Source of the DNA: Schwartzia succinivorans DSM 10502
Lineage (GTDB): Bacteria > Bacillota > Negativicutes > Selenomonadales > Selenomonadaceae
Reading direction: 5' to 3'
DNA: 64,000 bases
Assembly (NCBI RefSeq): GCF_900129225.1
Contig: NZ_FQUG01000002.1
Location: 186,001-250,000 of the forward strand
Positions 4,179 through 52,067 of this stretch are shown in pieces (within the stretch, counting starts at the first letter, position 1; each line of letters opens with the position of its first letter). Both the position numbers and the translations under genes were made by a program. The notes beneath the pieces are model-generated. The model was not told the DNA's origin, did not search any database, and saw nothing but the letters and a program-made list of their open reading frames with translations.

Positions 4179-4292
4179 TGTCTTCGTTACGCAGGTTTTG
4201 ATGAAATAATCAGAGCCTGCTTTCTCTATCTTAGGAACATGAAGGAAGACTTAGCGTACCAATTCATATTTCCAAGGGAAAAGGATGTTAGG

Positions 4293-5900
4293 ATGGATCC
4301 GCAGAAAAGGCAGATTCTGCTGCAAAATATAAAACTATACGATAGTGCGCTGGCTGCATGGGAAAAGAAAGACCTGGCTGAGGCGAGAAGGCTGCTTAAA
4401 GAAATGAAGGCGCAGACTGATGTGGGAACACTGCCGGCGTTTCTTTTGGAGGCGTATGTTGAGCGTGACAGTGGACGTCCTATCAGCGAGCTTGCGGTTT
4501 TGCAGCAGATTATTGCGCTTTTTGAAGGCCAGTCGGACCCGCTTTTATCTACAGCGTGGAGCCTTTTGGGGAGCACTCTTTCCTCAATTGGAGAAAATTC
4601 GCTGGCATTCAGTGCGTTTCGAAAAGCGGCGGAGACTGAGAGAGACTCTTCGCTGAAGTTGGTAGAGTACAGCAATGCGCTTTTTACCCTTAACCATCAG
4701 CCCAACATCCGTGCCATGACAATGCGCAGATATTACCGTGGGTATAGGTTGATGCTTCGAAATATTGAACCGATGAAGCGGTGCTGGTACGGTCATAAAA
4801 GACTGAGAGTGGGCTTTCTTTCCGGGGATTTCAGAACTCACCCAGTTGCGTGGTTTGTGTATGCGCTCCTTAGGTATATGAACCGTGAGAAATTTGAAGT
4901 TTTCTGCTATGCGGTCAAACAGGAAAATGATACCATTACCGAAAAGTTGAAGGCGTGCGCGGATAAATGGCGCGACATAGAAACAAAGGACTGGAAGTCA
5001 ATTGCCGATAAAATAAAGGGGGATGAGATAGATATACTCTTTGACCTTACAGGACATACAGAGACCAGCTGTCTCCCTGTTCTTGCGTATCAGCCTGCTC
5101 CTGTGCAGCTTACCGGCATTGGATACATGAACAGCAGCGGAATGGCAAATGTTGACGGATTTCTGTCGGATATTTACTGTTCGCCTAAGGAACGGGATGC
5201 TTTCTTTACGGAAACTATGCTGCGGCTTCCACATTCACATTTCTGCTATACAAAGCCCTATGCTTTTCCGGATATTGTACAGAAACCGCCATGTATGCGC
5301 GGCGGGCGCGTGACCTTCGGATGCTTCAATAATTTCTCCAAGATTACGGATGAAATGCTCAGGGCATGGAGTGAAATCCTGAGGCGTGTACCACGGTCAA
5401 GACTGCTTTTGAAGCAGAAGATATTTAATTCCGAGGAAGGAAGACAGTATGCAAGGGAGAGAATTGCACAGGCAGGAATCGACCTTGCATCAGTAGAATG
5501 CCGTGGCTTCAGTACAAATTATCTGGATGAATACAACGATATGGACATAGCACTGGATACATCACCATACACAGGCGGCCTGACAACATGTGAGACACTC
5601 TATATGGGAGTTCCTGTAGTTACACTGATAGGAAATCGCCACGGCGCACGGTTTGGCTACAGTATGCTCATGAATGTGGGCATAGGAGAGCTTGCTGCGG
5701 CGGATATGCGCTCTTATGTGGATATTGCCGTTGCATTGGCATCATCACCGGAATATCTCTTTATCCTGCATCAAAGACTCAGGGGAATGGTTCAGCAGAG
5801 TCCGTTGATGGATGGACCCGGTTATGCCCATGATGTTGGTAATCTTCTGCAGGAGTTTTATGAGGTGTGTCGAAGGAAAAGGACGGAGGTAAAGGAATGA
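4293..5900 (+). CDS. SPINDLY/OGT-like glycosyltransferase (GT41)
   Basis: Third GT41 paralogue, about 535 residues. A helical N-terminal region of about 165 residues is followed by the catalytic half: LRVGFLSGDFRTHPVAWF, FDLTGHTETS with YQPAPVQ, FGCFNNFSKITDEMLR, LLLKQK, and SPYTGGLTTC with GNRHGARFGYS. Two starts are possible. ATG 4239 has AGGA only two bases away. ATG 4293 has AAGGA at good spacing and is preferred, although the frame is open from 4239. The stop overlaps the next start as ATGA. Sequence divergence from the two upstream copies (for example LSGD instead of LSPN) suggests a different acceptor or donor (inference). Confidence 0.88.
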   Translation: MDPQKRQILLQNIKLYDSALAAWEKKDLAEARRLLKEMKAQTDVGTLPAFLLEAYVERDSGRPISELAVLQQIIALFEGQSDPLLSTAWSLLGSTLSSIGENSLAFSAFRKAAETERDSSLKLVEYSNALFTLNHQPNIRAMTMRRYYRGYRLMLRNIEPMKRCWYGHKRLRVGFLSGDFRTHPVAWFVYALLRYMNREKFEVFCYAVKQENDTITEKLKACADKWRDIETKDWKSIADKIKGDEIDILFDLTGHTETSCLPVLAYQPAPVQLTGIGYMNSSGMANVDGFLSDIYCSPKERDAFFTETMLRLPHSHFCYTKPYAFPDIVQKPPCMRGGRVTFGCFNNFSKITDEMLRAWSEILRRVPRSRLLLKQKIFNSEEGRQYARERIAQAGIDLASVECRGFSTNYLDEYNDMDIALDTSPYTGGLTTCETLYMGVPVVTLIGNRHGARFGYSMLMNVGIGELAAADMRSYVDIAVALASSPEYLFILHQRLRGMVQQSPLMDGPGYAHDVGNLLQEFYEVCRRKRTEVKE

Positions 5901-16401: not shown

Positions 16402-17781
16402 ATGATAGAAATAAATAAGCAGAGATTTGTGTTTATACCTGATTTTGAAAATGATTTGGACACGTACAATAAAGTCTGTCATCAGTTCATTGAGAAATTC
16501 TTTGGAACAGATGCTTTGTTAATTATTGTTGTTGAGAATATAGGCGAGGTTTTTCAATATTATTGTTATTGGAGCGTAAAGGCTTTTGAGGCTTGTCAAA
16601 TCAGGTATGCACTGTTAGACAAATGGGGAGTCGAACTGGTGCAAAAAGTGGATTATCTTATCTCAGGAATTAGTTCTAAGAATGATGCTTTTATTGATGT
16701 GGCATACAAAAACAGAGTGGGAATAATTTCAGCGTGTAAAGATGATGTTTTTTCCGAATTTTATCCTTCCGTAGCAGTTGTACAGGTAAAGGCGCAGATT
16801 AAAAAAGTCCTAAATGAAAAAATATTTCAAACAATTCCTTTGGGCGAATATGAGTATATACTGTTTCATCAGGGAATGGGCGAAACATTGTGTTTTTTGT
16901 ATTGGATGAAAGTCTATACGCAACAGAATCATCAACCAATTGCAGTTATTTGTACACAGGAATCGCGAAAAGAACTTCTGGAGCTATGCCCGTTTGTTTC
17001 TTGCGTAATCACGGTAAGCTCGTTATTTTGGGATTATATCTCAGTTTATTACGGCGATGAATTTCATATCAAAAATTTCAATGGATTGTATTTCAGTAAT
17101 CAACTCCCTTGGTCAAGAAGCAGGAGTTCATGTATGGTTGATGCTGTAAAAAAATTTTTAAAATTGCCTCAGGATGCGCAACTTGAAAAATATGAAATTA
17201 CAATACCGCAGAGCGCAGAAAATAATGCGGATATATTATTTGAAAATATGCACTTGAGGAAAAAACGCACAGTGTTTATTGTTCATAATGGAATTAACTT
17301 TGGGGATGGAGAAAGAAATGACGCGTTCTGGAAACAGCTTGTAGATGTACTTAGAGAAAATAATTATGATGTGGTGTTTAATAATAAGGATGAGGTATAT
17401 GGCTGTCCAGGAATTTTCTGTTCAATTTATGACACGGTGAAATTTGCTGAGAAGTGCGAGAACGTAATAAGTGTTTCCACGGGGCTGACAGAGGTAATAT
17501 GCGCGCTTGCCCGTAAAAAAATGTTAGTTCAGTTTGTGTGGCCCGGTTCGTATGATCCTGTTTGGACAAGTGATGAAGAAAGATGGGAGTATACATTGAG
17601 GGACATTAAACTTCATGGTATGGATTTTGTTCATGGCGTTATAGATTTACATCGTGAATATGAAGATCAGGTGTTCAGTGAAAGTGTAGATAGTTTAGAT
17701 TATATACTGGATATGGAGCCTGAAAAAATAGAAGAGCTTGTGCAGACTTTGGTACAGAACATAAAGAATAAAAACGTATAA
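16402..17781 (+). CDS. putative GT-B (GT9-like) glycosyltransferase
   Basis: 459 residues. N-terminal half unassigned (starts RFVFIPDFENDLDTYNKV). The middle has a GT9-like strand-helix entry (YEYILFHQGMGETLCFLYWMKVY) comparable to the GDxxxxxP opening of heptosyltransferases. The C-terminal half has KRTVFIVHNGINFGDGER, CENVISVSTGLTEVICALARKKMLVQF and a PGSYDPVW loop, resembling the donor-site region. Homology to ADP-heptose:LPS heptosyltransferases is suggestive, not certain. No membrane segment. Confidence 0.6.
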   Translation: MIEINKQRFVFIPDFENDLDTYNKVCHQFIEKFFGTDALLIIVVENIGEVFQYYCYWSVKAFEACQIRYALLDKWGVELVQKVDYLISGISSKNDAFIDVAYKNRVGIISACKDDVFSEFYPSVAVVQVKAQIKKVLNEKIFQTIPLGEYEYILFHQGMGETLCFLYWMKVYTQQNHQPIAVICTQESRKELLELCPFVSCVITVSSLFWDYISVYYGDEFHIKNFNGLYFSNQLPWSRSRSSCMVDAVKKFLKLPQDAQLEKYEITIPQSAENNADILFENMHLRKKRTVFIVHNGINFGDGERNDAFWKQLVDVLRENNYDVVFNNKDEVYGCPGIFCSIYDTVKFAEKCENVISVSTGLTEVICALARKKMLVQFVWPGSYDPVWTSDEERWEYTLRDIKLHGMDFVHGVIDLHREYEDQVFSESVDSLDYILDMEPEKIEELVQTLVQNIKNKNV

Positions 17782-17810: not shown

Positions 17811-19928
17811 ATGCTCAATTACATTATTGTCCAGGCGGGTGGCCGCGGCAGCCGTCTTGAAATTTTAACGAGGAACAAACCCAAGGCACTTGTTCCGGTA
17901 AATAATCTTCCTATGATTTTCCATTTATTTCGAAAGTTCCCGGATAAAAAATTCATTATCATTGGGGATTATCAGCATGAGGTGCTTGAGAAATATCTTA
18001 AAGCATTTGCGGATGTGGACTATACTGTAGTTGTTTCAAAGGGACATAAGGGAACCTGTGCCGGACTTTCGAAGGCATTGGAGCATGTACCTGAGAAGGA
18101 ACGCTTCATGCTGATTTGGTGCGATCTTGTTCTTTCGGAGGAATATGAAATTCCTGAGTCTGATGCAGATATCATTGGCATATCAAAGGATTTTTCCTGT
18201 CGTTGGAAATATGAAAACGGGGAGTTTGCGGAGGAACGCAGCGATAAACAGGGCGTTGCAGGCCTGTTTGTATTCCGTGACAAGGACTCGCTGCTGCAGG
18301 GAGCAAAGCTGCCGGAGGAAGGAGAATTTGTCCGCTGGCTCCAGTTTCAGCATCACACATTTGAAGAAAGTCCTTTATCGGGGACAAAGGAATACGGCCT
18401 TTACAGTGAATGGAGCAAGCTTCCGCGTCTTCGCTGCCGCCCGTTCAACCGTTTAGATGTCAAAGGTGATAAGGTCTACAAATACGGAATAGATAAGCAG
18501 GGAAAAGATCTTGCCGTCCGTGAAATAAACTGGTACAGAACAATACAGGGAACACCATTTAAGAATATACCCCATATATTCAGCTATGATCCGCTTTGTA
18601 TGGAATGGATTGACGGCAAAAATATTTACGAATATTCCTTTATTCCTGATGAACAGAAGAAGGATATACTGCAGCAGATTATCGGATGCCTGAAGGAAGT
18701 ACACCGTCTGGGGACAATGCCTGCTGACAGAGACAGCTTTTATAACGCATATATCGGAAAGACCTTTGACAGGCTCAAAAAGGTACGGGAGCTTGTTCCG
18801 TTTGCCAATGATGAATATGTAACCATCAATGGGCGCAGATGCCGCAACATTTTTTATCACCGGGAAGAGGTAGAGCGTCTTACTATGCAATACTGCCCTA
18901 AGGAATTTCGTGTGATTCACGGAGACTGCACATTCAGCAATACAATGCTTCGCCATGATACTGAGCCTGTACTGATTGATCCACGGGGTTATTTCGGACA
19001 TACAGAGATCTTGGGTGACCCGGCGTACGATTGGGTTAAGCTTTATTATTCGCTTATTAGCAATTACGACCAGTTTAATCTTAAAAGATTCACGCTCGAA
19101 ATAAATGAAACTGACATCAAGCTTGAAACAGCATCCAATAACTGGGAAAACATGGAGAATGAATTCTTCCATCTTTTGGCCGGCGAAGTTACGCGCAGTC
19201 AGATGAAGCTTCTTTTGGCACTCACATGGCTGTCGCTCACGACCTATGCGTGGGAAGATTATGACTCCATATGCGGCGCGTTTTATCAGGGACTTTATTA
19301 TCTCGAAGAGGCCTTTGAGATGGAGAGCGCCTATGAACCGTATTTTGAAAAAAATATCCGTACAATTGATTCGGCGCTGCACTCTATCAGCCGTATCCAG
19401 ATGGAAGGGCTAATTGAGGACTGCGCGGAAACGCTGCGTGACGGACGTCATAAGATTATAGCGACTGGCCTGGGCAAAAATGTTCCTATATGTGAAAAGT
19501 TTGTGGGAACTATGCTTTCCCTTGGGCTCAATGCAGGCTTCCTTAATACGAATTCGGCGATTCATGGTGATATGGGTATGGTTCGTCCGGGGGATTTGGT
19601 CATTATACTTACCAAGAGCGGCGCAACGGAGGAATCCATTTATCTTGCAGAGTTGCTGAAAAAGCGCGAAGGGGTAAAGCTTTGGCTTTTAAGCTTCAAC
19701 CCGGAAAGCATATTGAGCGGTATGATTGAAAAGAAGCTGCTGATTCATTTGGAGGACGAAGGGGACTTGTGGAACATCATGCCGAATAATTCCACAACGC
19801 TGAATCTTATCGTGCTGCAGACTGTGGCAAATGAATTGGCGCGGAAGCTGAATCTTTCCTTGGAGGAGGATTTTAGACCGAATCATCCGGGCGGAGCTAT
19901 AGGAGCGAAGATGCGCTATGGGAAATGA
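17811..19928 (+). CDS. trifunctional nucleotidyltransferase - APH-type kinase - SIS isomerase
   Basis: 705 residues with three recognisable enzymes in one chain. Residues 1-~225: sugar-1-phosphate/choline-type nucleotidyltransferase (VQAGGRGSRLEILTRNKPKALVPVN). Residues ~230-510: aminoglycoside/choline-kinase fold (catalytic VIHGDCTFSNTM and Mg-binding VLIDPRG). Residues ~520-705: SIS sugar-phosphate isomerase (IIATGLGKN, IILTKSGATEE, ending NHPGGAIGAK, the KdsD/KpsF-type tail without CBS domains). With the overlapping HAD gene this covers isomerase, kinase, phosphatase and nucleotidyltransferase, the steps used to make an NDP-heptose; NDP-pentose or a LicA/LicC-like role are alternatives. 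RBS GGGGGG six bases before ATG. Confidence 0.88.
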   Translation: MLNYIIVQAGGRGSRLEILTRNKPKALVPVNNLPMIFHLFRKFPDKKFIIIGDYQHEVLEKYLKAFADVDYTVVVSKGHKGTCAGLSKALEHVPEKERFMLIWCDLVLSEEYEIPESDADIIGISKDFSCRWKYENGEFAEERSDKQGVAGLFVFRDKDSLLQGAKLPEEGEFVRWLQFQHHTFEESPLSGTKEYGLYSEWSKLPRLRCRPFNRLDVKGDKVYKYGIDKQGKDLAVREINWYRTIQGTPFKNIPHIFSYDPLCMEWIDGKNIYEYSFIPDEQKKDILQQIIGCLKEVHRLGTMPADRDSFYNAYIGKTFDRLKKVRELVPFANDEYVTINGRRCRNIFYHREEVERLTMQYCPKEFRVIHGDCTFSNTMLRHDTEPVLIDPRGYFGHTEILGDPAYDWVKLYYSLISNYDQFNLKRFTLEINETDIKLETASNNWENMENEFFHLLAGEVTRSQMKLLLALTWLSLTTYAWEDYDSICGAFYQGLYYLEEAFEMESAYEPYFEKNIRTIDSALHSISRIQMEGLIEDCAETLRDGRHKIIATGLGKNVPICEKFVGTMLSLGLNAGFLNTNSAIHGDMGMVRPGDLVIILTKSGATEESIYLAELLKKREGVKLWLLSFNPESILSGMIEKKLLIHLEDEGDLWNIMPNNSTTLNLIVLQTVANELARKLNLSLEEDFRPNHPGGAIGAKMRYGK

Positions 19929-20292
19929 ATTGCGGCTGACAGAGCTTGGACATACATGGCTTTTGGATATTGACGGAACTCTTTTGAAGCATAATGGGTA
20001 CAAAAACGGCGGAGATGAAGTACTTGAAGGTGTCGAAGAGTTTTTCAATTCTCTGCGTGAAGAGGACACAGTGGTTCTCCTTACGGCACGTTCTGAGGAT
20101 ATGCGGGAGGAGACAGAGAAATTCCTTCGAATGGCAGGAATCAGGTATGACCACATTATTTTCGGACTGCCTACCGGAGAGCGTATTCTGGTGAATGATG
20201 ACAAGCCCTCAGGAAGATGTATGGGATATGCTTTGAATAAAAGACGTGATGAGAAATTGAAGATTAACTGTGTGATTGATGCTGAGTTGTGA
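19918..20292 (+). CDS. small HAD-superfamily phosphatase
   Basis: 124 residues. HAD motif I is WLLDIDGTLL with both catalytic aspartates, motif II is VVLLTARSED (Thr), then the HIIFGLPTGERILVNDDK region carrying the motif III lysine/motif IV aspartates. It is short and capless, like the BcbF/GmhB-type sugar-phosphate phosphatases found in capsule loci. It overlaps the trifunctional gene by 11 bases, implying tight co-expression and a step in the same activation pathway, removal of the terminal phosphate before nucleotidyl transfer (inference). Confidence 0.82.
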   Translation: MGNELRLTELGHTWLLDIDGTLLKHNGYKNGGDEVLEGVEEFFNSLREEDTVVLLTARSEDMREETEKFLRMAGIRYDHIIFGLPTGERILVNDDKPSGRCMGYALNKRRDEKLKINCVIDAEL

Positions 20293-45179: not shown

Positions 45180-45869
45180 ATGAATATAGTATTGCTTTTG
45201 GCCGGAGGAGCCGGCTCGCGTATGGGTAGTGTGATTCCTAAGCAGTTTCTGCAGGTTGCCGGCGAGCCGGTCATAGTGCATACGATGCGTGTGCTGGAGA
45301 ACAATCGGGATATAGATAAGATTGTGGCAGTTTGTATTGACGGCTGGGAGAAAAAACTGCGCGGTTATGCGGATAAAGCAGGAATAAGTAAGCTATTTAA
45401 TGTAGTTTCCGGTGGAGAAAACAGATATAAGTCTACCAGGCATGGGATGGAGTCCCTTGATGTAAATGATGATGATGTTATTGTCGTGCATGATGCCGCC
45501 CGCCCAATGGTTACAGATGAGTCTTTGTCAGATGTAATTTGCGTGTGCCGCGAGCATGGGAATTCTATGGCAGTGATAGACTGCGTTGATACGATGTATG
45601 CCCGGGAGGATGGTGGCACCTCGCAGGTCTTGGAACGCAGCATGATGGTGCGTGGACAGACTCCGGAGGCTGTTACAGGAAAGCGGATGCGGGATATGTA
45701 CAGGGCAGCGGACAAAAAGAAAATTCATGATGATTCGATATCGGCGCTTCAAGTTGCACTCGGATGGAAGGTCTATTTTGCAAAAGGTTCAGAGCAAAAT
45801 ATTAAAATGACGCGTCCGACGGACTTGAAATTCTTTGAGATGTGGCTTGTAGCACAAAAGAGAGCGTAA
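45180..45869 (+). CDS. IspD/TarI-family cytidylyltransferase
   Basis: 229 residues. Forms CDP-alditol or CDP-sugar from CTP and a polyol/sugar phosphate. Signature LLAGGAGSRMGSVIPKQFLQV (nucleotide loop and catalytic lysine), GGENRYKSTRHG, VVHDAARPMV and the C-terminal GSEQNIKMTRPTDLKF. Closer in feel to TarI/AbpA-type polyol cytidylyltransferases than housekeeping IspD because of the neighbours: a ribulose-phosphate-epimerase-like gene and a zinc dehydrogenase follow directly. The 82-base gap upstream contains two copies of TTGGAGTGAAG, the second serving as RBS. Confidence 0.85.
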   Translation: MNIVLLLAGGAGSRMGSVIPKQFLQVAGEPVIVHTMRVLENNRDIDKIVAVCIDGWEKKLRGYADKAGISKLFNVVSGGENRYKSTRHGMESLDVNDDDVIVVHDAARPMVTDESLSDVICVCREHGNSMAVIDCVDTMYAREDGGTSQVLERSMMVRGQTPEAVTGKRMRDMYRAADKKKIHDDSISALQVALGWKVYFAKGSEQNIKMTRPTDLKFFEMWLVAQKRA

Positions 45870-45952
45870 AGGAAGGATTCGGAGCAGTATCCGTCGAATA
45901 GTAAAGAGATAGATATTGTGTGACAGCGTATATGTCAATGGAGGCGGAGCAA

Positions 45953-46615
45953 GTGGATGTAGAGTATAATGCATCAATGATGTGTGCTGATTATGGCAGT
46001 TTGAAAAATGAGGTCATGGCGCTTGAAGCCGCGGATATAGATTCTTTTCATATTGATATTATGGATGGGCGTTTTGTTCCGAATTTTGCTATGTCGCTTA
46101 ATGACCTCGAGTGTATCGGACGTCTTACGAAGAAGCCTATGGACGTTCACCTTATGGTTGAACATCCGAACAATACTGTTGATTTGTTCTTAAGAGGGAT
46201 GCGTAAGGGGGATACTGTTTATATTCATCCTGAGGCAGAGTATCATCCTTCGACGACACTGCAGAAAATAATTGATGCAGGTATGATTCCGGGGATAGCC
46301 ATAAATCCGGGGACAAGTGTGGAGCTTGTCTATGAGATGCTCAGAATAGTGAAAAAAGTGCTTATTATGTCTGTGAATCCCGGCAATGCAGGTCAGATGT
46401 ATCTTCCTTATGTTGGGAAGAAAGTTACGAAGCTTTTGGCGCTCAAGGATGAGATGGATTTTGAGGTGTATTGGGACGGGGCCTGTGGGGCAGAAAAAAT
46501 AAAGGAGTTTGCTCCCAAAGGCGTTCGTGGCTTTATTTTAGGGACGACACTGCTATTTGGAAAAGACAGGTCATATAAAGAAATTATGGAAGATATTCGC
46601 AACATGAGGTTCTGA
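45953..46615 (+). CDS. ribulose-phosphate 3-epimerase-like protein
   Basis: About 220 residues, TIM barrel. The frame is open from GTG 45920, but GTG 45953 has GGAGGCGGAG directly before it and gives the normal family start (VDVEYNASMMCADYG). Metal ligands and catalytic residues of Rpe are in place: FHIDIMDGRFVPNF (His and Asp), DVHLMVEHP (His), AINPGTS, IMSVNPGNAGQ and YWDGACG (catalytic Asp; the usual DGG is DGA). Probably interconverts ribulose-5-P and xylulose-5-P, or a relative, to feed the flanking cytidylyltransferase and dehydrogenase (inference). Confidence 0.85.
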   Translation: MDVEYNASMMCADYGSLKNEVMALEAADIDSFHIDIMDGRFVPNFAMSLNDLECIGRLTKKPMDVHLMVEHPNNTVDLFLRGMRKGDTVYIHPEAEYHPSTTLQKIIDAGMIPGIAINPGTSVELVYEMLRIVKKVLIMSVNPGNAGQMYLPYVGKKVTKLLALKDEMDFEVYWDGACGAEKIKEFAPKGVRGFILGTTLLFGKDRSYKEIMEDIRNMRF

Positions 46616-47694
46616 TGAAGAAGGGCAGAGAAACAGAGATGGCTCAAGGGGAAATGATGCAGGCGCTGAGGCTCAATGGAATAGGCGATTTACGTTATGA
46701 AAGTGTTCCATTGCCGAAAAGGCAGTCGGATGAAGTGCTTTTGTGGGTGCGTGCCTGCGGTGTATGCGGCAGCGATATTCCACGCGTGTTTACGAAGGGA
46801 ACGTATCATTTCCCTACGATTATTGGGCATGAGTTTGCAGGTGAGGTTATCGACGCGGATGATTTGTCGCTTATTGGAAAGGGTGCTGCGGTGTTTCCCC
46901 TGATTCCATGCAGAGAGTGCTCAGCGTGCAATGAAGGGCAGTATGCGCAGTGCGCGAATTATGATTATTACGGCTCCCGATGTGATGGAGCTATGAGCCA
47001 GTACATTGCAGTGAAAAAGGAAAATCTTGTACTTATCCCTGAGGGTGTTTCATATATGGCGGCGGCTATGTGCGAGCCTGCGGCGGTTTCCCTGCACGCG
47101 TTCAGAAAAGCGGATGTGTATGAAAACGATACTGTAGTCATTTTTGGCGTTGGCCCTATAGGGCTTCTTTTTGCAAGCTGGGTACGAGAGGCGGATGCGA
47201 AGCATGTTGTGCTTGTGGCACGCAGCGAAGAACGGGCAGATTTTGCAAGGAAGCTTGGATTTATTGACGTTGTTGACAGCAGCGTAACGGATGTGGAGGA
47301 GTATGTGTCCAAGCTTACCGGAGGTGCCGGTGCCGATGTTTGTGTAGAAGGGACAGGAAGCAGTGATGCGTTGGAGCTGTGCCTTAAATGTACCGGAAAT
47401 TTCGGACGTGTGGTGACTATGGGAAACCCGGTCGGCGACATAACGCTTTCTCAGGATGCCTATTGGAAAATTCTCCGTAAGGAACTAAAGCTCGTAGGAA
47501 CGTGGAACAGTAGTTTTTCTGAGAAGCAGAACGATTGGGAGGATGTGCTCGAGGCGATGAAGGACAGGGTTATTGATCCTGAGGCACTTATTACGCATGT
47601 GTTTGGTCTTAAAGATTATGAAAAAGCATTTCAGATTATGCATGAAAAGACAGAACCGTACTGCAAGGTGATGTTCACGATGGATGAAAGATGA
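46615..47694 (+). CDS. zinc-dependent medium-chain dehydrogenase (polyol-phosphate type)
   Basis: 359 residues. The ATG overlaps the upstream TGA; ATG 46639 and 46654 are later in-frame options. MDR zinc enzyme: ACGVCGSDIPR (catalytic Cys), GHEFAGEV (His and Glu), a structural-zinc loop with four cysteines PCRECSACNEGQYAQC, NAD-binding VIFGVGPIGLLFASWV and CTGNFGRVVTMGNP. The layout resembles galactitol-1-phosphate 5-dehydrogenase and TarJ. With the two genes before it, it probably reduces a pentulose (phosphate or CDP-linked) to a pentitol, giving a CDP-pentitol donor (inference). Confidence 0.87.
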   Translation: MKKGRETEMAQGEMMQALRLNGIGDLRYESVPLPKRQSDEVLLWVRACGVCGSDIPRVFTKGTYHFPTIIGHEFAGEVIDADDLSLIGKGAAVFPLIPCRECSACNEGQYAQCANYDYYGSRCDGAMSQYIAVKKENLVLIPEGVSYMAAAMCEPAAVSLHAFRKADVYENDTVVIFGVGPIGLLFASWVREADAKHVVLVARSEERADFARKLGFIDVVDSSVTDVEEYVSKLTGGAGADVCVEGTGSSDALELCLKCTGNFGRVVTMGNPVGDITLSQDAYWKILRKELKLVGTWNSSFSEKQNDWEDVLEAMKDRVIDPEALITHVFGLKDYEKAFQIMHEKTEPYCKVMFTMDER

Positions 47695-49585: not shown

Positions 49586-50818
49586 ATGGGCGGTTTTCGT
49601 TATCCTGTGGAGTATTTCAGCTGCAAGGATTTTGATAAAAAACCTGAGGACATTCAGCAGATGTTGATGTGCATGGCAGACTGGGGGCGTAAGCTTTCAG
49701 GGCCTGTACGGGGTGAGACAGGGATTGATGGTGTCCGGCTGGATTTTAACAATGGTGTCCGTGTAGAGGTGACTGAGGGACCGTGGCATGTGACTATCGG
49801 TGATTATGATTCAGGTATGGTATTCTATGATGCTGATGTGTCTGAGAAGCTGATTGTCTCCATGGAAAAGTATTATATACATTGGCATATCCGCATATCC
49901 TACGAGGGAAATCTCGTTTTTGAGCATGTATTTGATATGCGTGATCAGAAGGTGCGGCTTATTTTTCAGAGCTGGCTTTTAGGGGATATGCAGTCATTTC
50001 TTTCGTATGTGCCCTACGTCCGTGATTATTATGGAGCAGATGTTTATTATTGGATTCCTGATTCGATGAAGGAAGCAGCACAGCATATTCTGAAGGATGT
50101 TCCTCTGCGTGAGGATTTTGATGAGGATACCTATGCGACATTTTATTTTAATGCTGGCTTGGATATCCCCTGTCTGATGCCGATTGACGGCAGACAGGTT
50201 CCAATGACACAGACGGGCCAGATTATTATGAATCTGCCGTCTGAAGCACCGAAGCTTCCGTGGCCTAAGGGAGAGCGCAAAATCAAGGAGCCCTATGTGT
50301 GTATCGGGGTACAGGCTTCTTCTGTCGGGAAGGGCTGGCTGTATCCGCACGGATGGGACGAGGTTACGGAGTATTTGAAATCGCTGGGATATCGTGTGCT
50401 GTGCATTGATAAGGAAAAAGTGATGGATGACCGCGGGTATAGGCTTGAGATGCCGGAGGGAGCAGAGGATTATACAGGGGATTTGCCGTTAATTGAACGT
50501 TTGGATATGCTGACATATGCAGATTTCTTCATAGGGCTGGCAAGCGGTCTTTCATGGCTGGCGTATACAGCGGACTGCCCGGTGGTTATGATTGGAGGTT
50601 TTTCTGCGTATTGGACCGAGTTTCCGAATCCTTACAGAGTATATAACAGGCTTGTCTGCAATGCCTGTTACAATGACGTTCGTGTTAACTGGCAGGGGAA
50701 TATGTGCCCGAAGCAGCAGGCGGGTACAGATAAGATTTTCGAGTGTTCGAAAAAAATCTCGCCGCGCATGGTGCTAGATGCCATTGAGCGTTTGCGAAGG
50801 GATAAAGGACTTGTTTGA
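49586..50818 (+). CDS. autotransporter-type O-heptosyltransferase (TibC/Aah-like), copy 1
   Basis: 410 residues. Matches the bacterial autotransporter heptosyltransferase family: an N-terminal beta-rich region (GETGIDGVRLDFNNGVRV, WHVTIGDYDSG, VFEHVFDMRDQKV), then a GT9-like part (YVCIGVQASSVGKGWLYPHGW, IGLASGLSWLAYTADCPVVMI, YRVYNRLVCNACYND). Four cysteines form CxxC-x12-C-x12-C at about 358, 361, 374 and 387, the position of the iron finger in TibC. In that family ADP-heptose is transferred to Ser of strand-loop-strand autotransporter repeats. Acceptor not in window. Confidence 0.86.
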   Translation: MGGFRYPVEYFSCKDFDKKPEDIQQMLMCMADWGRKLSGPVRGETGIDGVRLDFNNGVRVEVTEGPWHVTIGDYDSGMVFYDADVSEKLIVSMEKYYIHWHIRISYEGNLVFEHVFDMRDQKVRLIFQSWLLGDMQSFLSYVPYVRDYYGADVYYWIPDSMKEAAQHILKDVPLREDFDEDTYATFYFNAGLDIPCLMPIDGRQVPMTQTGQIIMNLPSEAPKLPWPKGERKIKEPYVCIGVQASSVGKGWLYPHGWDEVTEYLKSLGYRVLCIDKEKVMDDRGYRLEMPEGAEDYTGDLPLIERLDMLTYADFFIGLASGLSWLAYTADCPVVMIGGFSAYWTEFPNPYRVYNRLVCNACYNDVRVNWQGNMCPKQQAGTDKIFECSKKISPRMVLDAIERLRRDKGLV

Positions 50819-50843
50819 TGAAGCTTCCTTTGGAGGTAGAACC

Positions 50844-52067
50844 ATGGGTAAATACCCGTATAGAATACAATATTTTGTCTGCAAGGAGTTTGCGGAGAAC
50901 GAAAAGAATGTGCCGGGGCTTTTGAAGGCACTGCAGGAGCTTGATTCCTTTACCGGCGAGGTGACCGGAGAAACAGGTATTGATGGGCTTCGGCTTGATT
51001 TCAACTGCGGGCTCAGGCTCATTGTGCCTGAAGGGGATTTCCATGTTCGCATTGGAGATTATGATTCTGAGGAAATTCTTTTTGAGCAGGATGTATCAGA
51101 GGTCTGCCTTATATCATGGGAGAAATATTACATCCGCTGGTCGGTGGAGGTATTTCTTGATGGAAAGCTTGTGCTGGCGCATGTATTTGATTCCCATAAT
51201 CAACGTGTGCATTTTGACTGCAACGATGCCGCGATGGGAGATTTTTTGGCGTTTCTTCCGTATATAAAGAAATATCGGGAGGAATATAATGCTGATGTCA
51301 CCTGCAGCGTGCCGAAATATCTTAGTGAGCTTGCGCTTAAATTGGATACAGGTATGAAGCTTTCGGATAAATGGGATGAAAATCTGTATGCAGTCTATTA
51401 TATGCATATGGGCTTTAATTTCCCAAGTGCGCTGCCTATCCCTGCCGACAGCCGTTCCCTTACGATGTACGGGCAGCTTCTGACAGGGCTTTCCATGCCG
51501 GAGCTTTTGCGGTATACTCCGACAGAAGAAAGAACGATTCGGGAGCCTTATGTCTGTATCGCGGTGCAGGCTTCAACCCCCAACAAAGGGTGGCTTTGGC
51601 CCCAAGGTTGGGATATACTCGTGGATTATCTTAAAAAGCTTGGATATAGAGTGCTTTGTATTGACCGTGACAAAAGGCAGGAACGTGATGGTTATGTGAC
51701 GGAAATGCCGAAGGGTGCGGAGGATTTTACGGGGGATTTGCCGCTGGTTCAGCGTGCGGAGCTTTTGGCACACGCGGATTTTTTCGTAGGGCTTTCCAGC
51801 GGACTTGCCTGGCTTGCACATTCTGCAGATTGTCCTGTTGTTATGATTGCAGGTTTTACCAGGGACTGGTATGAGTTTCATACACCCTACCGTGTTTATA
51901 ACAGACTTGCGTGCAACGGATGCGCAAACGATGATTTTGCGGAATTTATTTTTGATATCTGCCCAAGGCATAAGGGCGATAAAGAACGGGAGCTTGAGTG
52001 TCAGAAAAAAATCTCGCCGCGCATGGTGACAGATGTCATTGAGCGTCTCAGAAAAGACAAGGGATAA
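50844..52067 (+). CDS. autotransporter-type O-heptosyltransferase (TibC/Aah-like), copy 2
   Basis: 407 residues from ATG 50844 (GGAGG upstream; the frame is open from 50778 inside the previous gene). Clear tandem paralogue of the preceding gene: GETGIDGLRLDFNCGLRL, FHVRIGDYDSE, FEQDVSEVCLISWEKYYI, YVCIAVQASTPNKGWLWPQGW, VGLSSGLAWLAHSADCPVVMI. Cysteine finger CNGC-x12-C-x12-C with identical spacing. The two copies may glycosylate different acceptors or form mixed oligomers like the dodecameric family members. A terminator-like hairpin follows. Confidence 0.86.
   Translation: MGKYPYRIQYFVCKEFAENEKNVPGLLKALQELDSFTGEVTGETGIDGLRLDFNCGLRLIVPEGDFHVRIGDYDSEEILFEQDVSEVCLISWEKYYIRWSVEVFLDGKLVLAHVFDSHNQRVHFDCNDAAMGDFLAFLPYIKKYREEYNADVTCSVPKYLSELALKLDTGMKLSDKWDENLYAVYYMHMGFNFPSALPIPADSRSLTMYGQLLTGLSMPELLRYTPTEERTIREPYVCIAVQASTPNKGWLWPQGWDILVDYLKKLGYRVLCIDRDKRQERDGYVTEMPKGAEDFTGDLPLVQRAELLAHADFFVGLSSGLAWLAHSADCPVVMIAGFTRDWYEFHTPYRVYNRLACNGCANDDFAEFIFDICPRHKGDKERELECQKKISPRMVTDVIERLRKDKG

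Follow-up and report, generated by a model that had tools for sequence, protein, structure and literature searches.

The window, a 64,000-nucleotide stretch of the genome of the rumen-type bacterium Schwartzia succinivorans DSM 10502 (2.66 Mb in 20 contigs), carries on its forward strand an open reading frame at 17811-19928 that stays open in a single frame for 705 codons from its ATG and encodes a protein of 705 residues. An N-terminal nucleotidyltransferase domain of the MobA/MurU/LicC-like kind (residues 1-215; 17811-18455) is followed by an APH-type kinase domain (residues 216-510; 18456-19340) and a SIS sugar-phosphate isomerase domain that we classify as KdsD-type (residues 511-705; 19341-19925). 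A small HAD-fold phosphatase of 124 residues (19918-20292, same strand) begins in another frame and overlaps the fusion by 11 bases. The first-pass annotation had described three catalytic signatures in one chain and a phosphatase frame sharing 11 bases with it, and the reading-frame check, Pfam and an alignment of 29 full-length fusions bear this description out. Curated Pfam cut-offs are passed by NTP_transf_3 at residues 6-108 (E 1.9e-10), in a domain that NTP_transferase also matches, by APH at residues 264-414 (E 7e-08) and by SIS at residues 547-672 (E 7.4e-11). Because 29 full-length fusions could be aligned, the other 28 being 50-73% identical to that of the window with invariant catalytic motifs, and because the genome_contigs collection contains relatives in 267 of its stretches, the fusion is not a product of chance.

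Within the nucleotidyltransferase domain, alignment columns Q8, G10, G11, G13, R15, K25 and D105 show no change. In an AlphaFold2 model built from the 29 full-length fusions (mean pLDDT 85.9), this domain superimposes on MurU 4y7t (VIA Z 19.8, rmsd 2.8, 193 residues aligned) and on LicC (VIA Z 19.0, rmsd 2.8, 201 aligned), and GDP-mannose pyrophosphorylases likewise resemble it; the MurU model NF045761 scored the fusion at 24 bits, below its cut-off of 250. The kinase domain bears the motifs HGDCTFSN (370-377) and DPRG (390-393), of which H370, G371, D372, N377 and D390 are present in every row (90 bacterial, 7 phage) of a wider nucleotidyltransferase-kinase alignment, with A replacing the P of DPRG in five of the 90 bacterial rows. 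We regard these domains and residues as firm. The phosphatase frame contains the signatures DIDGT, LLTAR and NDD, has Pfam matches below the cut-offs (Acid_phosphat_B 8e-06, Hydrolase_6 1.8e-05, HAD_PNKP 3e-04), finds no match in NCBIfam at 0.001 and does not classify as a GmhB-type HAD-IIIA phosphatase. The earlier proposal of a self-contained sugar-activation machine with four predicted activities is supported.

Immediately upstream, at 16402-17781 on the same strand, lies a gene for a GT9-like glycosyltransferase of the heptosyltransferase fold. PF01075 did not match it even at E up to 1 and no Pfam family was found for it, so that its identity as a GT9 enzyme rests on fold and profile: its model (pLDDT 86.3) has WaaF 1psw (4e-08), 3tov, WaaC and TibC as top Foldseek matches and aligns with 3tov over 263 residues (VIA Z 16.4, rmsd 4.2), and its family matches a GT9 set by hhalign (94%, 1e-07). 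Three GT41 (OGT-like) genes at 99-2982 and 4239-5900 suggest protein O-glycosylation in the same island, and the TibC-like enzymes noted previously at 49586-52067 are real, matching TibC_1st and Glyco_transf_9. Consecutive genes at 45180-47694 encode an IspD/TarI-like cytidylyltransferase, a ribulose-phosphate 3-epimerase and a zinc alcohol dehydrogenase, adjoined by a frame of 704 residues with no Pfam match; read as TarI/TarJ genes, these may form a CDP-ribitol set fed by the same ribulose-5-phosphate.

The best 80 of the 267 stretches, together with the window, formed a set of 81 loci. Of these, 34 have the SIS domain fused and 40 have it as a neighbouring gene of its own; 6 lack it and 1 has a broken copy. 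The cassette is widespread and forms a single unit, with SIS fused or adjacent in most loci. Of the 67 loci that leave over 1.5 kb of space, 54 have a homologue of the HAD phosphatase downstream, in most cases overlapping by a few bases. A member of the GT9-like family is the first gene upstream (position -1) in 32 of 67 loci and the first gene downstream (+1) in 14 of 58, whereas positions -2 to -6 yield 11 family members among 217 genes. These matches were compared by position within loci; the profile behind them started from the gene at 16402-17781 and was iterated over reading frames of the same loci, so it may have drifted. We consider the linkage of these genes firm. Small frames lie just 5' of the cassette at several loci (for example L096:2886-3221), one of them with a DUF4254 match. 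At L022:1144-2679 (minus strand), a single frame holds APH and HAD matches and an overlapping frame holds most of the nucleotidyltransferase, which, if not a frameshift, would be another order of fusion.

Loci without SIS make up 6 of 21 from diderm bacteria and none of 58 from monoderms (Clostridia and Bacilli), the remaining locus coming from an archaeal MAG; we assigned these groups from taxonomic class, and some labels may be wrong because many loci are MAGs. On a tree of 97 nucleotidyltransferase-kinase rows (90 bacterial, 6 of these without the start of the nucleotidyltransferase, and 7 phage; identical sequences entered once; FastTree only), the fused label changes 11 times, the split label 11 times and the absent label 5 times, so that both fusion and SIS loss look recurrent. 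Copies without SIS, which share 42-44% identity with the window, group in a separate clade. An order-wide search found a match at 1e-20 in 24 of 189 genomes, and the one same-genus genome among those listed, which is 63% complete, gave none at that threshold.

A genome-wide search for replacement isomerases in 13 genomes with SIS-less modules found exactly one other SIS match in each, of KdsD size and 28-35% identical. Stretches were then taken from these 13 genomes and from G096, and an NCBIfam run covered 9 of the 13 (all but G156, G174, G176 and G191), and all 9 proteins passed the TIGR00393 (KpsF/GutQ) cut-off; in 11 monoderm genomes given the same search, the SIS matches were all of the module type. 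One SIS protein of KdsD size per SIS-less genome fits arabinose-5-phosphate as a shared intermediate, with the caveat that all these genomes are diderm and a KdsD would be expected in them anyway.

The nearest PDB entries to the SIS domain of the fusion, by sequence and by fold, are the arabinose-5-phosphate isomerases 5uqi, 3etn and 2xhz, and the model aligns with 2xhz at Z 22.1 (rmsd 2.6, 174 residues), with 3etn at Z 21.6 (rmsd 2.8, 190 residues) and with 5uqi, which contains arabinose-5-phosphate, at Z 21.3 (rmsd 2.8, 187 residues). GmhA chains reach a VIA Z of about 19, trailing KdsD by no more than about 4 Z units, so the fold alone cannot choose between the two. The SIS domain carries K556 (after GxGK), H585 (of HGD), E650 and H692 (of HPGG), the KdsD-type active-site residues, which presumably have catalytic roles in KdsD-type isomerases; the same four align in four split bacterial SIS proteins, four phage SIS proteins and the KdsD of this genome, and the alignment does not find them in its two GmhA-like proteins. 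The KpsF/GutQ model TIGR00393 scores the domain at 85 bits, under the curated cut-off of 203.7, over profile positions 2-153 of 268 only, and no GmhA model is among the NCBIfam matches of the fusion. Judged by these residues, the domain is most likely an arabinose-5-phosphate isomerase. The first-pass annotation had left an arabinose-5-phosphate route open on the strength of the KdsD-like ending, and KdsD-type residues, PDB relatives and phage RB69 (discussed below) now favour it.

These observations bear on the proposal that the locus makes NDP-heptose, in which sedoheptulose-7-phosphate would be isomerised, phosphorylated, dephosphorylated and activated for GT9- or TibC-type heptosyltransferases. 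Such a pathway needs the same four activities, a GT9-like gene often precedes the cassette, GmhA chains fit the SIS fold at the score given above and HddC matches the fusion weakly (30.8 bits, cut-off 300). However, known NDP-heptose sets (GmhA, HldE or HddA, GmhB, HddC) share this four-activity logic while drawing their isomerase, kinase and phosphatase from other families; the kinase here is an APH protein by Pfam and does not classify as a PfkB or GHMP heptose kinase. The search for separate heptose genes that the first-pass annotation had suggested returned two sets, the genetic half of what it had said would count against heptose. At 184-203 kb of one contig (C14) lie two rfaE-I-type kinases, an rfaE-II adenylyltransferase, GmhB, HldD and three GT9s, with the GmhA-like gene of this ADP-heptose set on C10, and at 239-242 kb of C14 lies a GDP-heptose set of a GmhA-like protein, an HddC-GmhB fusion and HddA. 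We consider the presence of these other heptose genes firm, with names that rest on gene context and best match because both GmhA-like proteins score under the TIGR00441 cut-off, and HddA, HddC and one rfaE-I match fall below the cut-offs of their own equivalog models. The accessible portions of two papers further describe phages with the same cassette as carrying arabinose rather than heptose (PMC6024577, PMC13390438). Given the separate heptose genes and the KdsD-type residues, we set heptose aside as the sugar of the cassette and consider this reading highly unlikely; a heptose supply to the TibC-like enzymes finds no support in a genome with its own ADP- and GDP-heptose sets.

The cassette extends to phages, and we regard this homology as firm. 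A tblastn search found homologues of the nucleotidyltransferase-kinase portion in 352 phage records, with coverage of at least 80% in 340; phrog_4098 covers residues 5-503, spanning both domains, at 2.7e-58, and phrog_5670 matches SIS at 2.9e-31. Cyanophage S-SRM01, whose homologue is 34% identical over 98%, has SIS, nucleotidyltransferase-kinase and HAD genes adjacent to one another among glycan genes, and SIS, nucleotidyltransferase-kinase and a small HAD-like frame occur in that order in RB69, CHI14, EcS1, Minot and PspYZU05. Across eight phage records with the nucleotidyltransferase-kinase, a SIS search was positive in six and found none in Tenacibaculum phage PTm1 and Enterococcus phage 9183, two exceptions to the pattern of a SIS held elsewhere when the module lacks one; no member of the GT9-like family was found in the eight stretches. 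Among the phages tried, the bacterial HAD is clearly homologous to that of S-SRM01 (1.8e-51), weakly similar to that of Enterococcus phage 9183 (1e-09) and not significantly similar to RB69p051 (E 0.27).

In RB69, p055 (SIS), p053 and p052 (nucleotidyltransferase and APH) and p051 (small HAD) form one gene run with the same domain kinds as the fusion and its HAD partner. Its SIS matches a profile of the bacterial module SIS at 1.2e-31, and the nucleotidyltransferase-kinase of its relatives matches most of the length of the corresponding part of the window. RB69 differs in its separate genes, an identity of about 25%, a HAD that is not clearly orthologous to the bacterial one and DNA as the final acceptor. 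RB69 p051 (NC_004928 27708-28094) is labelled 'phosphoheptose isomerase', yet it is a small HAD with DVDD, LYTAR and DDK, and this PHROG label for phrog_1238 and RB69p051 looks like a misannotation. Co-migration in HPAEC cannot tell D- from L-arabinose. With that reservation, the sugar of RB69 DNA co-migrates with D-arabinose, and in 2018 its authors proposed synthesis of UDP-arabinose (PMC6024577); p051 is tabulated in a later paper with a polynucleotide-kinase phosphatase domain (PMC8056088), and in 2026 the arabinose donor pathway of phages with arabinosylated DNA was still called uncharacterised and its precursor unclear (PMC13390438), as far as the accessible sections of these papers go.

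The sugar cannot be read from the fold, and the same logic might serve to activate another aldose, such as xylose, ribose, a deoxypentose or a hexose. The separate clade of SIS-less copies would suit this alternative, as would Shewanella phage Thanatos, which carries a deoxypentose. TH1_060 of that phage is homologous (53%) to the RB69 nucleotidyltransferase-kinase, and an in vitro assay with xylose-1-phosphate identified no function for it (PMC12838424). We nevertheless consider another aldose unlikely, since the KdsD-type SIS and the arabinose of RB69 indicate arabinose-5-phosphate.

We therefore favour arabinose, on the grounds of the KdsD-type SIS, the linked cassette, the KdsD of SIS-less genomes and the homology to phages with arabinosylated DNA, and propose, with a probability of about 0.7, that the fusion and its HAD partner form a self-contained synthase of NDP-D-arabinose from ribulose-5-phosphate. 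The SIS domain would convert D-ribulose-5-phosphate to D-arabinose-5-phosphate, the small HAD would strip off the 5-phosphate, either ahead of the kinase reaction or following it, the APH domain would phosphorylate the anomeric C1 and the MobA-like domain would add a nucleotide to yield NDP-D-arabinose. The upstream GT9-like protein, judging by the position of its gene, probably uses this product and would pass arabinose to a surface glycan. How the enzymes act at every step and whether the HAD precedes the kinase are inferences, and so are the choice of nucleotide, a D-configured sugar in the bacterium and the acceptor that receives it.

The combination of a MurU-like nucleotidyltransferase fold with an APH kinase and a HAD phosphatase recalls the MupP-AmgK-MurU route, in which a HAD phosphatase, an anomeric kinase of APH fold and a MobA-like nucleotidyltransferase act. 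The enzyme kinds would be the same, with a nucleotidyltransferase fold that matches MurU; MupP-AmgK-MurU differs in lacking a SIS, in its MurNAc substrate and in its separate genes. The likeness of the same fold to LicC admits a further alternative, in which the SIS feeds arabinose-5-phosphate only to Kdo or a related acid and the nucleotidyltransferase-kinase serves choline or ethanolamine, as LicA-LicC do. By eye, genes resembling KdsA, KdsC or a CMP-sugar synthetase lie near the cassette at three loci from rabbit-gut Oscillospiraceae MAGs (L104, L105, L108). KdsA-like genes appear at few loci, however, the Kdo operon of this genome (C13 at 117 kb) has its own separate KdsD, and the SIS is fused to the nucleotidyltransferase-kinase in 34 of 81 loci and accompanies it in six of eight phage records, leaving this alternative very improbable.

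The fusion itself has been in print before. Butyrivibrio proteoclasticus P18 protein SFQ39577.1 has the same three domains as that of the window, and we take it to be, very probably, our relative L039 from the same strain, which is 67-68% identical to the window. The Butyrivibrio fusion was presented in 2018 as a homologue of the RB69 proteins with a C-terminal SIS (PMC6024577); the accessible text of that paper assigns it no firm function and does not discuss the HAD or the GT9-like neighbour. Beyond the RB69 work, the literature searched yielded no paper on the fusion or on bacterial synthesis of NDP-D-arabinose from arabinose-5-phosphate, and no bacterial glycan with this sugar was found there for these groups.

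Taken more broadly, our findings raise the prospect of a portable pathway from ribulose-5-phosphate to NDP-D-arabinose, to which we assign roughly even odds. At its most compact it would consist of a phosphatase and a single chain carrying three enzymes. Bacteria of the gut and rumen would combine it with GT9-like arabinosyltransferases, a large group so far unrecognised, to build surface glycans, phages would share the cassette for DNA arabinosylation, and the isomerase could be dropped where a KdsD exists. A one-chain bacterial homologue that holds all of the predicted activities but one offers a convenient protein for determining substrate, order of steps and nucleotide, and the analysis draws attention to a group of GT9-like transferases missed by Pfam. 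Our proposal also predicts that many Lachnospiraceae, Oscillospiraceae and Selenomonadaceae of the rumen and gut carry D-arabinose in their surface glycans.
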